Assembly (NCBI RefSeq): GCF_000379945.1
Contig: NZ_KB904151.1
Coordinates: 1 to 64,000 of the forward strand
Length of the DNA stretch: 64,000 nt
Reading direction: 5' to 3'
Source: Porphyromonas macacae DSM 20710 = JCM 13914
Lineage (GTDB): Bacteria > Bacteroidota > Bacteroidia > Bacteroidales > Porphyromonadaceae
A program made the translations under genes and the position numbers. The notes under the pieces are model-generated. The model was not told the origin of the DNA, ran no database searches, and saw only the letters and a list, made by a program, of their open reading frames with translations. Below are positions 34,320 to 40,420 of the stretch, in pieces; position 1 is the stretch's first letter, and each line of letters begins with the position of its first letter.

Positions 34320-35879
34320 ATGAAGAAGTCTAAAAGGCCGAGAAACTTTCGGGAGTTTAGCCGCATGGGAAGCGATGCCTTGTGGGTGATGCTTATAAAA
34401 GATATAAACCGGGTTTTTGTGAAAGCCTGGCCTGTAATTATTCTCGTCTTTTTCAATGATGCCGGTGTCGGGCGAAAAATGATGCAACTTTTACTCTTAG
34501 GATTGTCTCTTCTGGTGTTGGGTGCTTTATTTTCGGTCATCCGTTATTTTACCTCTTATTTTAAGATTGAAAATCAGTGTGTGGTTTTCAAACGGGCTTC
34601 TTGGGTGAAATCCGTTAAAACCATACCGTTGGAGCATATTCATACTATTCGTACGACGAGCGGTTTTTTTTACCGTCTTGTCGATATGGTTGCTGTCTGT
34701 TTCGACTGTGTAGTCCAAAAGGAGGCCGAAGTCGAGCTTCTTTTGAGTAAAACGGACCTCGAATTGTTACTGAAAACGATCAATGAAGAGGGCGGCTTTA
34801 CAATACCGGTCTCTTCCAACTTTCGGTCGAAGGATGCCGGATCGGCAGAAGAGCAGCATGTACATGCAAATGTCCGAAGCTATTCTTTTGGATTAAGGGA
34901 ACTTATACAGGGGGCTGTCACACAAAATCCTTTGAAAGGTTTAGGGGTGATTTTTGCCGTATTGGTGTATGTGTTCAACGAGTCCACCGATTTAATCATG
35001 AGATATCAGGACGTTATTGTGGACAATGTATCGAAGTGGTATGGGCACAGTACGTGGTCTATGCTGTTTTTTGTTTTTGTCGTTTCGTATCTGATTACTC
35101 TTCTGATTTGGATAGCCGTTGTCGTTATTCGTAAGTATGGATTGAGTGTTTCTTTAACTTCGGACAAGATTCATTATCAGGCCGGGATGTTTACCCGGCG
35201 GTCTGCTTTTGTAAGTAAAGACAAGATCGTGGGGCTTACATTCAAACAAAATATTTTGGAGAGAATCACCGGTGTGGAGACCGTATCGATAGAACAATCG
35301 GACTCTGTGGAGGGAGAGAAGGGAAAAGAGCGTATCGTTATTTATGGCTGGAAAGACCGGATTGCTTTAGAAAACGAGTGGTTCGGGGCAGAAGGGGTGA
35401 CCCGTGCCGGAAAAAGTGTTTCCGGTCAAGGGCTGTTTTGGTATCATCTGTTGGTACGCATATTCATTCTGATCATCCCATCTGGTACTTTAGTCTTTTT
35501 TGTTTATCCGCTGTTGCTCTGGGGGGTATTGCCTTTTGTGGCGGGAGTGAGTGTATTGGGAGCTTATCTGCGTTTCAAACGGAGTGCCATAGCTGTAGCC
35601 CCGGCTCATGTGCTTATTTACCATGGGCAATATTCCCGTAAACAAACTTTTTTGCCGATAAGGAAAATAGAGAGTGTTCTTTTGTGTCGGACTTTTATGC
35701 AGAAACGTAGCGGAAGAGTCCGTTTGAGCCTTAATACCATGGGAGGTCTTTTTACAGTGCGCAGCTTACCTCTTGATGAAGCCCGGGCAATCCGTGATTA
35801 TATCCTTTACAAAATGGAAATGCTGTCAGATGAAAATCCTACTCAGATCAAATCCGCCACAGAAGAGCCGGGTATGTAG
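34320..35879 (+). CDS. PH-domain membrane protein, YdbT-like (three bPH2 segments)
   Basis: 519 residues. Hydrophobic pairs near 36-75, 200-260 and 370-420 alternate with bPH2 segments: 'NQCVVFKRASWVKSVKTIPL', 'QAGMFTRRSAFVSKDKIVGL' and 'IYHGQYSRKQTFLPIRKIES'. This is the usual YdbT arrangement. Its 3' end overlaps the 3' end of the minus-strand ybaK gene by 37 bp, so both stop codons lie within the partner gene. Confidence 0.85.
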   Translation: MKKSKRPRNFREFSRMGSDALWVMLIKDINRVFVKAWPVIILVFFNDAGVGRKMMQLLLLGLSLLVLGALFSVIRYFTSYFKIENQCVVFKRASWVKSVKTIPLEHIHTIRTTSGFFYRLVDMVAVCFDCVVQKEAEVELLLSKTDLELLLKTINEEGGFTIPVSSNFRSKDAGSAEEQHVHANVRSYSFGLRELIQGAVTQNPLKGLGVIFAVLVYVFNESTDLIMRYQDVIVDNVSKWYGHSTWSMLFFVFVVSYLITLLIWIAVVVIRKYGLSVSLTSDKIHYQAGMFTRRSAFVSKDKIVGLTFKQNILERITGVETVSIEQSDSVEGEKGKERIVIYGWKDRIALENEWFGAEGVTRAGKSVSGQGLFWYHLLVRIFILIIPSGTLVFFVYPLLLWGVLPFVAGVSVLGAYLRFKRSAIAVAPAHVLIYHGQYSRKQTFLPIRKIESVLLCRTFMQKRSGRVRLSLNTMGGLFTVRSLPLDEARAIRDYILYKMEMLSDENPTQIKSATEEPGM

Positions 35880-36325
35880 TCTATGAGATCTTGCGGAGCA
35901 ATGCGCAGTTGCAGGCCGCGTACTCCCGCACTCACATAGATGTGCTCGAAATTCTTTATTGTTTGGTGAAAATAAGTAGGGAAATTTTTTTTCATTCCTA
36001 TCGGGCAACAGCCGCCCCGGATATATCCCGTAAGCGGGAGCAACTCTTTTTGGGCAATCAGTTCTACCTTTTTATTGCCTGATGCCCTGGCTGCTTTTTT
36101 CAGATCGACCTCTTCGGCTCCGGGGATTACGCACACCAGATGTTTGATTTTGTCACCCGATAATACAAGTGTTTTGAAGACCTGATTGACATCTTCATTC
36201 AGACTTTGGGCCACATGGATGGCCGAGAGGTCATTTTCGTCCACTTCATAAGTTACCAGCTCGTAGTTTATTCCGGCTGCATCCAACAAGCGCGCCACAT
36301 TGGTTTTAGGGATTTTCTTCGTCAT
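35843..36325 (-). CDS. ybaK: Cys-tRNA(Pro) deacylase YbaK/EbsC type
   Basis: 160 residues, cytosolic. 'TNVARLLDAAGINYELVTYE' start, 'VFKTLVLSGDKIKHLVCVIP' and 'KELLPLTGYIRGGCCPIGMKK' are the family signatures, including the catalytic-region Lys and the GGC-P-GMKK motif. It hydrolyses Cys mischarged on tRNA-Pro. Convergent with the PH-domain gene. Confidence 0.93.
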   Translation of the reverse strand: MTKKIPKTNVARLLDAAGINYELVTYEVDENDLSAIHVAQSLNEDVNQVFKTLVLSGDKIKHLVCVIPGAEEVDLKKAARASGNKKVELIAQKELLPLTGYIRGGCCPIGMKKNFPTYFHQTIKNFEHIYVSAGVRGLQLRIAPQDLIDYIPGSSVADLI

Positions 36326-36444: not shown

Positions 36445-36476
36445 ATTGTGTTTGGTGGGTGATTGGAATAATTTTG
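36445..36476 (+). promoter_or_regulatory. Promoter of the HmuY-BspA lipoprotein gene
   Basis: TTG (36446-36448), 20-nt spacer, TAATTTTG (36469-36476). RNA start near 36483, 28 nt before the ATG. No Fur-like box was recognised by eye. Confidence 0.5.
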
Positions 36477-36510: not shown

Positions 36511-37971
36511 ATGAAAAAGAGTTTCAAATTTCTAACGCTGGGTCTTTATTTATTATCAACGTTGGCGTTAGTTTCCTGCGAAAAAAAGGAAGATGGTCCT
36601 AAAGCCGAAACAAAACCAGTGGGTACGGTTAATGCACAAATTAAAATTTCCGATGGTGCAGAAAAATCTGAGTTTGTTTATTTCTCTTTTATGAAAACGA
36701 AACAGGTTGCGATAGCTCCGGAAAAAGTAAAAACGGATACCGACTGGGATTTGGCTTTCCTGGATATTAACGGACGTACCAACGGCGGACAGAGCGGTGC
36801 CGGTAAAGCTGCCGTTTATCGCACGGAGTATGACGACTTTGAAGGTATTAAAAGTGCAGAACCATTTATTGCAGATAAGAGTGAATGGGTTTTAGATAAA
36901 GTTCAGGAAACAACTTCTTATGGAAAGATGCCGCCCAAACAAGTGAAAGATTCGTTCAATAAACACCTGATAAAAGGGTGGTACGAATTTGATATGAGCG
37001 GTGGTATGCCCCCGAAGTTTATTATCACCAAAGATGTGTATATCATCCGTACGGCAAAGGGCGACTACGTAAAACTTCAATTTCTGGCTGTCGAATATGA
37101 GAATAAGAAACTGTCTGCCATTAAGTTCAGATATGCTTACATCAGTGAAACCGGAAAGAATAATGTAACTCCGAAGAAGCGTGATGGCGAGGTCATTTTG
37201 TCGGAAGTGAAAACCGGGATGGTAGAAGAAGCTTTGAAAAATGAAAAAGTCGAAAACATTAAAATCTTGACCATAAAAAAGTCTACTCTTAATCAGGCAG
37301 ATATTAATGCGATAAAAAAACTGCCTAAGTTGGAAGAGCTTGATCTGCATAAAGCAACATTGTCCATAGACACTTATGATAAAGGCTTTAAAGACAGTAA
37401 AGTCATAAAAAAACTGATTGCTCCTCAGAATTTAGAGGCTACCGGTTTGGGTTGGTTCGGTTATATGTCTCAATTGGAAGAAATTGTTTTTCCGGGTACT
37501 GCGTTGAAGAGCATCGGTAACGGTACATTCTCGATGTCAAGAAAGTTGTCGAAAATAGAACTGCCCGAATCATTGGAAATTATAGAGCCGGATGCTTTTT
37601 ATGCAACGGCAATCGCGAAGATTAAGGTACCGGAGAAAGTGAAACATATTCCGAGCGGCTGTTTCTTTTACTGTAAACAGTTGAAAGAGGTTTATTTGCC
37701 CAAAAGTATCATTTCACTGGGGGACGCAGCCTTTGGAAGTTGCACAGAGTTGGAAAAGATCGTATTTGCATCTTCGACACCTCCGGCGTTTGCTATCAAC
37801 CCTGAAACGAAGAAGCCGGTCTTTCCGTTCAACGGGCTTACCTGGAAGAAGGGTGAAAAACGTTTCTTCTGCTTTTATGTGCCGAAAGGCTCTGTGTCTG
37901 CATATCTCAACAAATGGGGCTGGAAAGAAAAAGATGCTGCATATTTTGAAGAGTATGAGCCGAAGAAGTAA
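36511..37971 (+). CDS. Lipoprotein joining a HmuY-like domain to BspA-type leucine-rich repeats
   Basis: 486 residues. Lipobox ALVSCEKK (Cys23). Residues about 50-225 look like HmuY: 'TDTDWDLAFLDINGRTNGGQ' with 'SGAGKAAVYRTEYDDFEGI', and 'DVYIIRTAKGDYVKLQFLA' followed by 'KFRYAYISETGKN', the two regions conserved in HmuY and its homologues. HmuY binds haem; in relatives the axial ligands are His or Met. Met140, Met162 and Met166 lie where ligands might be, but this is a guess. Residues about 240-480 carry BspA-type LRR_5 repeats ('SIGNGTFSMSRKLSKIELPE', 'IEPDAFYATAIAKIKVPEKV', 'LGDAAFGSCTELEKIVF'). An esterase-like lipoprotein follows 38 bp downstream. No TonB receptor (HmuR) is adjacent. Confidence 0.8.
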   Translation: MKKSFKFLTLGLYLLSTLALVSCEKKEDGPKAETKPVGTVNAQIKISDGAEKSEFVYFSFMKTKQVAIAPEKVKTDTDWDLAFLDINGRTNGGQSGAGKAAVYRTEYDDFEGIKSAEPFIADKSEWVLDKVQETTSYGKMPPKQVKDSFNKHLIKGWYEFDMSGGMPPKFIITKDVYIIRTAKGDYVKLQFLAVEYENKKLSAIKFRYAYISETGKNNVTPKKRDGEVILSEVKTGMVEEALKNEKVENIKILTIKKSTLNQADINAIKKLPKLEELDLHKATLSIDTYDKGFKDSKVIKKLIAPQNLEATGLGWFGYMSQLEEIVFPGTALKSIGNGTFSMSRKLSKIELPESLEIIEPDAFYATAIAKIKVPEKVKHIPSGCFFYCKQLKEVYLPKSIISLGDAAFGSCTELEKIVFASSTPPAFAINPETKKPVFPFNGLTWKKGEKRFFCFYVPKGSVSAYLNKWGWKEKDAAYFEEYEPKK

Positions 37972-38009
37972 ACTGTTGTAATGTAATACAGCCTTAGAGA
38001 AAGGAAGAT

Positions 38010-39356
38010 ATGAAAGCTGCTTATCCCCTGTATTTCGTTTCATTTCTTTGTCTTGCCTTTTTATGGCAGGCATGCAGTGATGATAGGGAACCGGAGATCC
38101 AACGGGTACCGAAGGAAAACTATTTGTCTGACGCTATCCTGATCGACTACTTTCGGTCACAGTTAGATAAGGATTTGACAGCTTCGGCTCCCGAACAAAC
38201 ATATCGGGAGATTATACAGCCAACCGAGCGTAAATCTACTGAAGATGCTATGTGGAATCTGTGGAAAAAAGCCAATGCGGAAAGAATGTCTAAAGCAAAG
38301 TGGACTGTTTCTACGACTTCTAACGAAGTTGTTTGGCAGATTCCTCAAGAAGAAAAGATGCGTATAAAGTTATTTGCCAAAGGAGAAAAACCCCGAGGCG
38401 GATATCCGATGTTTATCAATCTGCATGGTGGAGGTTCTTACCCGGATGCTCCATCCGCATGGGGATCTACCATCAATGAAGAAGAATGGTTTGCTGCTCT
38501 TCGCCTTTCCCGGGAATATAAAGATGCTCCTTCTTTCTATTTTGTTCCACGCATGTCGGATGACAGAAAAGGACGCTGGCATTTTGCTCCGCAGCGTAAT
38601 GCTTTTAAGCGTGCCTATCAATTGGCAGTGCTGAGCGAAGAGATCGATCCGGACAGGGTTTACCTGATGGGAATATCCGAGGGCGGTTATGGAAGTATTC
38701 GTTTGGGCTTGTTTATGCCGGACTATTTTGCAGCCATAGGTCCAATGGCTGCGTCGACAAAAGTAGAGGGTACTGCTGTCAATATGAGAAATACGGCATT
38801 TCGGATGGATGTCGGTGAATTGGATTATATGTTTGGCCGCAACTATTATGTGTATGAATGGCTTGAAAAGATGCAGCAACTCAGAAATGAAAATCCCGGA
38901 GATTTCGAACATCTGGTTAAAGTACATCTGGGTTACGGGCATGGTATACCGTACCATGAGATGTCTCCATGGCTTATTAAGTACAGGCGCAGGACTTACC
39001 CCGCACGCATTACCTATGAATACTATAACATTGATGACGGCTACTCCGATGGCGTTTATTATTTGAGTTTCAGACAATTGAAACCTGAGACGGATGCCCG
39101 TATCTTATTCGATGTTAAACATCGGGACAATCACTTTGAAGTGACTGCTACTCCTCAGGAAGGTAAAGTGGCCGGGGTTTTGACATTGTATATCGATCGG
39201 GTTGATTTTTCAAAACCTGTTACCGTTTCTCTCAATGGAAAGAGAGTCTTTGACAAAAGACTTTTTATGAATCGTGGTACTATGATTGAAGCTATTGCGC
39301 AGTTTGGAGACCCGAGACGAATCTTTGCTGCCAAGGTCGATGTTCCTTTACAATAG
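38010..39356 (+). CDS. Alpha/beta-hydrolase (esterase-like) lipoprotein
   Basis: 448 residues. Signal peptide with lipobox LWQACSDD. A central alpha/beta-hydrolase core: oxyanion 'YPMFINLHGGGSYPDAPSAW', nucleophile 'VYLMGISEGGYGSIRLGLF' (GxSxGG) and a likely His in 'LGYGHGIPYHEMSPW'. The C-terminal 90 residues look like a beta-sandwich ('VTATPQEGKVAGVLTLYIDR'), possibly a binding module. It follows the HmuY-BspA gene with no terminator between and is probably in the same operon. Substrate (ester-bearing glycan, peptide or lipid) not predictable. Confidence 0.78.
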   Translation: MKAAYPLYFVSFLCLAFLWQACSDDREPEIQRVPKENYLSDAILIDYFRSQLDKDLTASAPEQTYREIIQPTERKSTEDAMWNLWKKANAERMSKAKWTVSTTSNEVVWQIPQEEKMRIKLFAKGEKPRGGYPMFINLHGGGSYPDAPSAWGSTINEEEWFAALRLSREYKDAPSFYFVPRMSDDRKGRWHFAPQRNAFKRAYQLAVLSEEIDPDRVYLMGISEGGYGSIRLGLFMPDYFAAIGPMAASTKVEGTAVNMRNTAFRMDVGELDYMFGRNYYVYEWLEKMQQLRNENPGDFEHLVKVHLGYGHGIPYHEMSPWLIKYRRRTYPARITYEYYNIDDGYSDGVYYLSFRQLKPETDARILFDVKHRDNHFEVTATPQEGKVAGVLTLYIDRVDFSKPVTVSLNGKRVFDKRLFMNRGTMIEAIAQFGDPRRIFAAKVDVPLQ

Positions 39357-39417: not shown

Positions 39418-39456
39418 TACCCCGATACTGTATCTCTGTATCGGGGTTTCTTTTTA
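39418..39456 (+). terminator. Intrinsic terminator after the esterase gene
   Basis: Perfect stem ACCCCGATAC/GTATCGGGGT followed by TTCTTTTT. Confidence 0.88.
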
Positions 39457-39488
39457 TTGACTATTCTTAAAAAATATAGCTATCTTTG
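39457..39488 (+). promoter_or_regulatory. Promoter of the DUF4595-like lipoprotein gene
   Basis: TTG (39457-39459), 21-nt spacer, TATCTTTG (39481-39488). It begins where the preceding terminator ends. Confidence 0.5.
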
Positions 39489-39538: not shown

Positions 39539-40420
39539 ATGAAGAAGATTGTTTTTTCTATAGTAACTATAATGATGTTACTTTTGGCATCATGTAAAAG
39601 TGATACGCCAACGCCTTCCGATGGGAACCAACCCGGAGGAGAAACCATTAATGTAGTGCGTTCTATAAATATCTCTTATCCTCCTGTATCTATCGGTGGT
39701 ATAAACAGCGATTTTACCCGTTTTGAATATGAATATGATAAAAAAGGCAGGCTGACCGAAATTGATTGGGAAGACTCTGAAGAGAATAAAGAAATAGATT
39801 TTGATATTCTCTATGATATAAATCGTATTCTCGTGAATATCGATGGAAACATCGATTATAAATCCGAAATGGACTTAAATGCTGACAATCAGGTGACGAA
39901 GCTCCAGATTAAAGGAAAGCAAATTCTGACTTCTGTTAATTTTACTTATGAAGGCAAAAAGTTGAAAAGCCATAGTTTCGTAAATCCAAAAAGCCCCAAA
40001 CTGAATCATGTTGAAGTGTTTGAGTGGAAAGGCGATAATCTGGTGAAGGTATATACCAAGGAGAGAGGCGATTTGGCAGATCAGGTTTCTATAAACATTG
40101 AATATTACCCCGATTTATTGAATACCTGTTTCCCGGATATTACCCAGCACTTCGATTTTATGCACCTTGAGAATAATAGAATAGAGAATTATGGCTTGGT
40201 ACCCGAATTGAGGTATTTGATGGGAATGCGAAGCCGGAATCTGCCTAAAAAAGTGATAACCGAAATCACGTCGGAATTCGGTGGGCATAAGCACCATATT
40301 TTTACGAAAGAAATCACCTATAAATTCGACAGTAAGGGACGTATAGACATTGTTTTTGTGACCTCTAAAGAGAAGAATAATACCAGGCCCTTTAAGTTTG
40401 AGGTTAAAATAAATTATTAA
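39539..40420 (+). CDS. DUF4595-like lipoprotein
   Basis: 293 residues. Lipobox LLLASCKSD. The mature protein has repeated 'YEYDKKGRLTEI' / 'YKFDSKGRIDIVF' strands resembling RHS-type beta repeats; together with 'FTYEGKKLKSHSF' and the late 'GLVPELRYLMGMRSRNLPKK' block this fits DUF4595, a Bacteroidetes family of surface lipoproteins with unknown function. Own promoter and terminator. Confidence 0.7.
   Translation: MKKIVFSIVTIMMLLLASCKSDTPTPSDGNQPGGETINVVRSINISYPPVSIGGINSDFTRFEYEYDKKGRLTEIDWEDSEENKEIDFDILYDINRILVNIDGNIDYKSEMDLNADNQVTKLQIKGKQILTSVNFTYEGKKLKSHSFVNPKSPKLNHVEVFEWKGDNLVKVYTKERGDLADQVSINIEYYPDLLNTCFPDITQHFDFMHLENNRIENYGLVPELRYLMGMRSRNLPKKVITEITSEFGGHKHHIFTKEITYKFDSKGRIDIVFVTSKEKNNTRPFKFEVKINY

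Follow-up and report, generated by a model that had tools for sequence, protein, structure and literature searches.

The window analysed here, a 64,000-nucleotide stretch of DNA, comes from a 2.2-Mb genome of Porphyromonas type, whose genus also includes P. pasteri. Two plus-strand open reading frames span positions 36511-39356 exactly, the interval that the original prediction had singled out. The features of the locus and of its two products are listed below in window coordinates.

36469..36476, plus strand: TAnnTTTG element (TAATTTTG), candidate -7 box of a Bacteroidota promoter.
36511..37971, plus strand: HmuY-LRR fusion lipoprotein, 486 aa (ORF call, Pfam, AlphaFold2, Foldseek).
36577..36579, plus strand: lipid-attachment Cys23, then acidic EKKED; similar to a lipoprotein export signal.
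36667..37134, plus strand: HmuY domain, aa 53-208 (PF14064; structures 8b6a, 3h8t).
36928..36930, plus strand: Met140, candidate haem-iron ligand 1, in the first MPP loop (alignments).
37006..37008, plus strand: Met166, candidate haem-iron ligand 2, in the second MPP loop (alignments).
37459..37776, plus strand: top-scoring BspA-type leucine-rich repeat (LRR) stretch, aa 317-422 (PF13306).
38010..39356, plus strand: esterase-fold lipoprotein, 448 aa, a PHB depolymerase-/feruloyl esterase-like alpha/beta hydrolase with a C-terminal beta-rich domain.
38676..38678, plus strand: catalytic Ser223 in GISEGGYG, proposed triad; invariant in homologues.
38823-38825, plus strand: Asp272, proposed triad; invariant in homologues.
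38940-38942, plus strand: His311, proposed triad; invariant in homologues.
39419..39447, plus strand: intrinsic terminator hairpin followed by a T-run, closing the two-gene unit (-21.4 kcal/mol, z -6.3).

The two genes lie on the same strand and are separated by 38 nt. The upstream gene (35843-36325), which encodes a YbaK-type deacylase, is divergent, a strong terminator follows the esterase gene, and a separate TAnnTTTG box, at 39481, precedes the next lipoprotein gene (39539-40420). The fusion and esterase genes are therefore most simply read as one bicistronic operon, in agreement with what had been proposed. The box at 36469..36476 is weak evidence on its own, because 71 TAnnTTTG sites are observed within the window as compared to 55 expected. 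Matches to sigma-70-type promoters are no more frequent here than chance predicts and were rejected. The lipoprotein encoded at 39539-40420 gives only weak matches, to DUF4595 and to the BSAP5b N-terminus. As anticipated, the neighbours from ~30 to 48 kb, some of which were judged from sequence only, showed no TonB receptor. The two-gene unit contains no hmuSTUV genes, and none of the genes seen next to it points to polysaccharide utilisation.

The predicted combination of a HmuY-like domain with BspA repeats is borne out by Pfam, by structure prediction, and by Foldseek. The fusion protein matches PF14064 (HmuY) with an E-value of 1.9e-22 (80.5 bits versus a cut-off of 27) and PF13306 (LRR_5) with an E-value of 3e-27 (95.4 bits versus 27.7); its LRR half as a whole extends over ~aa 227-484. 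Structure prediction had been named beforehand as the check on the HmuY fold, and that fold was found. The AlphaFold2 model, built from ten homologues (mean pLDDT 87.5), has B. fragilis HmuY-2 (8b6a) as its top Foldseek match, with a TM of 0.82 by target length, and haem-bound P. gingivalis HmuY (3h8t) gives a TM of 0.74, also by target length. BspA-type LRR structures rank after the HmuY structures. The fusion has the fold and the lipoprotein type of the HmuY family (PF14064), within which HmuY-2 is nearest by both sequence and structure. It differs from that family in carrying leucine-rich repeats, in lacking an adjoining HmuR, in the replacement of the porphyrin tyrosines, and in forming a separate clade (see below). 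The repeat type and predicted fold are common to BspA-type LRR surface proteins (PF13306; 4fdw, 4fd0, 6mlx), whereas the N-terminal HmuY domain and the short repeat array set the fusion apart from them. Among fusion orthologues, mean pairwise identity is 44% in the HmuY half and 41% in the LRR half. The HmuY half is as conserved as the repeats, which argues that it is under constraint. A further BspA-type LRR protein is encoded elsewhere in the genome (G000:C2:94090-95004, a frame of 507 aa).

Both products have lipoprotein signals. The fusion carries a signal peptide and Cys23, a cysteine kept in full-length orthologues, and the lipid-attachment residue of the esterase is Cys22. Acidic residues follow the cysteine in each protein (CEKKED in the fusion, CSDDRE in the esterase) and resemble, but do not prove, the lipoprotein surface-export signal described in PMC5080379. 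Judged from these N-terminal residues, both proteins are probably outward-facing outer-membrane lipoproteins.

The gene following the fusion had been described as a GxSxGG hydrolase lipoprotein, and this description holds: Ser223 lies in GISEGGYG, and the model (pLDDT 93.1) adopts an alpha/beta-hydrolase fold. Ser223, Asp272, and His311 are invariant in 24/24 aligned esterase homologues. The core of the model matches thermostable, feruloyl, and acetylxylan esterases, and the nearest structures include Bacteroides feruloyl esterases as well as acetylxylan esterases. An alpha/beta-hydrolase core with Ser-Asp-His is common to this protein and to PHB-depolymerase-like, feruloyl, and acetylxylan esterases (3doh, 3wyd, BT_4077, Bacint_04212). 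However, the window esterase has an N-terminal helical part and a C-terminal beta domain, and it scores below the Pfam cut-offs and below those of curated NCBIfam families (35.8 bits versus 150 for NF050058; 31.6 versus 107.85 for TIGR01840). Among GTDB representatives, esterases of the same family also occur alone in other Bacteroidota and beyond.

A contig scan with a single protein as the query returned no matches, whereas a scan of GTDB representatives with the esterase alignment as bait succeeded and gave 80 loci. In nine of these, a repeat or fusion protein lies directly upstream of the esterase. Eight of the nine encode a HmuY fusion (P. canoris, FC4, four MAGs, Hoylesella marshii, and Prevotella DNF00663); the ninth, P. 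pasteri, encodes repeats only with the esterase. Two further fusions were found by genome searches (G027 and G142). The fusion-esterase pairing, which the original prediction had suggested surveying, thus recurs in Porphyromonadaceae, Prevotellaceae, and one further Bacteroidales family. In H. marshii and Prevotella sp. DNF00663 (L046/L047), the fusion and esterase are near-identical and equally spaced, as for the same species or a recent transfer. The architecture is rare: HmuY occurs in 105/393 Bacteroidales genomes, of which only two, the window genome and G142, were seen to carry the fusion, a rough rate from a partial sample, and within the window's own genus 1/26 genomes carries it. In a class-wide search with a fusion profile, the only full-length match was in the window genome, the remainder being repeats alone or HmuY alone. 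Long-frame HmuY matches in four other Bacteroidales genomes (G072, G097, G181, and G418) gave no LRR-profile match and were rejected as fusions. The HmuY gene of G097 (L160:4471-4854) appears to be broken by a stop codon. At the fusion orthologues, the flanks examined contain no recognised adjacent TonB receptor (HmuR).

A tree was built from 34 HmuY domains, with few stand-alone HmuYs from outside Porphyromonadaceae among them; a branch supported at 100/100 separates all 11 fusion domains from the others. The simplest reading of these sequences is a single fusion event, followed by spread or loss. The stand-alone HmuY of the window genome falls on the Tfo/Bvu side of the tree. This protein is encoded beside a TonB-dependent receptor elsewhere in the genome (L040:5380-8253) and has Met in both pocket loops. 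In P. pasteri, two tandem LRR-only lipoproteins precede the esterase (L041:3871-5937), with the HmuY half absent. A genome search found no HmuY anywhere in P. pasteri, as is also stated in PMC12106395.

The original prediction saw no obvious His ligand and proposed Met140, Met162, and Met166 as candidates. His coordination was rejected, as His152, the sole His in the HmuY region, is not conserved. In profile and multiple alignments, Met140 and Met166 lie no more than one residue away from the two ligand methionines of Tannerella HmuY (Tfo; 6eu8), and the 26-residue Met-Met spacing is equal in the two proteins. Met162 aligns to no known ligand position and was dropped. The Tfo chain residues Met123/Met149 were equated with M145/M171 of PMC12106395 by a numbering offset; an earlier paper (PMC6200708) gives the Tfo ligands as chain Met120 and Met149. 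Six of the ten fusions have both MPP loops, and a seventh, that of H. marshii, shows a looser match. The other three, from P. canoris, a MAG closely related to it, and a Bacteroides-labelled MAG, lack both Met residues.

In B. fragilis HmuY-2, Tyr89 and Tyr165 are needed for haem/PPIX binding (PMC12106395). The corresponding residues are Ile and Phe in the window protein, both tyrosines are replaced in all ten fusions, and Tfo likewise lacks them. Because Tfo binds haem without either tyrosine, their replacement lowers, but does not exclude, haem binding and is not decisive. HmuY-2, the closest solved relative, binds haem without iron coordination. Haem binding by the fusion HmuY domain is plausible from these alignments. 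hemE was not found in the window genome, which therefore probably needs outside haem. In the sister genus, hemE is present in all five fusion genomes, three of which keep the Met pair, and haem prototrophy was accordingly rejected as the cause of Met loss in P. canoris.

We tentatively favour, at somewhat less than even confidence, a reading in which the repeats hold a surface, the HmuY pocket takes haem or porphyrin for a separate HmuY-receptor system, and the esterase cuts an ester there. In the fusion, a BspA-type arm of leucine-rich repeats would carry the HmuY-fold pocket. The repeats would hold on to a protein, or to the surface of the host or of a bacterium, and the pocket would take a flat hydrophobic ligand from the held target. 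This ligand would most likely be haem or porphyrin, gripped by Met140 and Met166 where both are kept, and would then pass to the separately encoded stand-alone HmuY and TonB receptor. The co-transcribed esterase would cut an ester on that surface or substrate, perhaps in contact with the fusion. This enzyme partner is what the reading accounts for least well. Capture of haem is supported by the HmuY and LRR_5 domains and the fold match to haem-bound HmuY and HmuY-2, and by the Met pair at the Tfo positions, its spacing, and the MPP loops in most fusions. The constrained HmuY half, the single well-supported fusion clade, and the esterase pairing in several families also argue for it, as do the hmuY-TonB receptor pair elsewhere in a genome in which hemE was not found and the parallel absence in P. 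pasteri of any HmuY and of the HmuY half of its repeat proteins. Against it stand the replaced tyrosines in ten fusions, the loss of both Met residues in three, the lack of a TonB receptor or hmuSTUV in the unit, the repeats and esterase of P. pasteri without HmuY, and the fact that we know of no haem route that requires an esterase. The HmuY fold named in the original prediction stands, but the survey weakens a simple haemophore reading: some fusions have lost both Met residues, none keeps the tyrosines, and P. pasteri retains repeats and esterase without a HmuY part.

Several of these observations also fit an explanation that is possible, although we hold it with less confidence, in which the core is the LRR protein and the esterase. 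The target on which the repeats dock would be a glycan, lipid, or protein that carries an ester, the esterase would de-esterify it, and the HmuY fold would be re-used for substrate or product rather than haem. The two tandem LRR-only lipoproteins of P. pasteri, paired with the esterase and free of HmuY, are what such a core would look like, and the loss of Met in three orthologues, the replacement of the tyrosines in all, and a partner gene that encodes an enzyme rather than a receptor point the same way. The nearest esterase structures, Bacteroides feruloyl esterases and acetylxylan esterases among them, are consistent with such a substrate, and the fold of B. fragilis HmuY-3, which binds neither haem nor PPIX (PMC12106395), provides a precedent. 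However, the position and spacing of the Met pair match Tfo in most orthologues, no polysaccharide-utilisation genes are apparent next to the pair, and the loss of HmuY everywhere in P. pasteri fits a haem-linked loss. For P. pasteri itself, haem-linked loss and a core of repeats plus esterase are close in weight.

It is quite unlikely that the repeats target a host protein loaded with haem or iron (haemoglobin, ferritin), from which the haem domain strips or receives haem, with the esterase as a companion that takes no direct part in haem uptake. This logic is that of IlsA of Bacillus cereus, a NEAT-LRR-SLH surface protein (PMC2777315), and HupY, a haem-binding LRR adhesin of Streptococcus, is a looser functional parallel (PMC6593403). 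IlsA and the fusion both combine a haem-type domain with LRRs on a surface protein, a likeness of working only, with no homology claimed. The fusion has HmuY instead of NEAT, which is unrelated in sequence and gave no Pfam match in the protein, and a lipid anchor instead of SLH; IlsA has no described esterase partner. Host-protein binding and the function of the LRRs would here be carried over by analogy, and the conserved esterase pairing would be left unexplained. Very unlikely is a plain adhesin of BspA type in which the HmuY part serves only as a ligand-free stalk or cap: the pocket residues are more variable than a fixed ligand site would predict and some species lack both Met residues, but the HmuY half is as conserved as the LRR half and distant orthologues keep the paired MPP loops.

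The favoured capture of haem can be extended to a bolder proposal, doubtful as a whole, that the fusion is a counterpart of IlsA in Bacteroidota that has not been described before. A Met-Met HmuY on an LRR arm would capture haem from a target, of host or bacterial origin, to which the protein is bound, a dedicated esterase would loosen or unmask that target, and the haem would feed the separate hmuY-receptor system.

A literature search to which most subscription journals were closed found no description of a HmuY-LRR fusion, and domain databases may list the architecture. The two-gene unit of HmuY-LRR fusion and esterase, rare yet recurring in several Bacteroidales families, is apparently undescribed. 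Each domain type is already known; what appears new is a HmuY fold joined to BspA-type repeats and paired with an esterase. HmuY proteins are studied as haemophore-like proteins that stand alone and supply the receptor beside them. The conserved fusion of HmuY to adhesin repeats, together with an enzyme, across Bacteroidales families, with oral Porphyromonas and Hoylesella among their members, suggests that the HmuY fold has another task as well or captures in a targeted way. Orthologues with and without the Met pair, together with a lineage lacking the HmuY half, provide a natural series for direct tests of the ligand.
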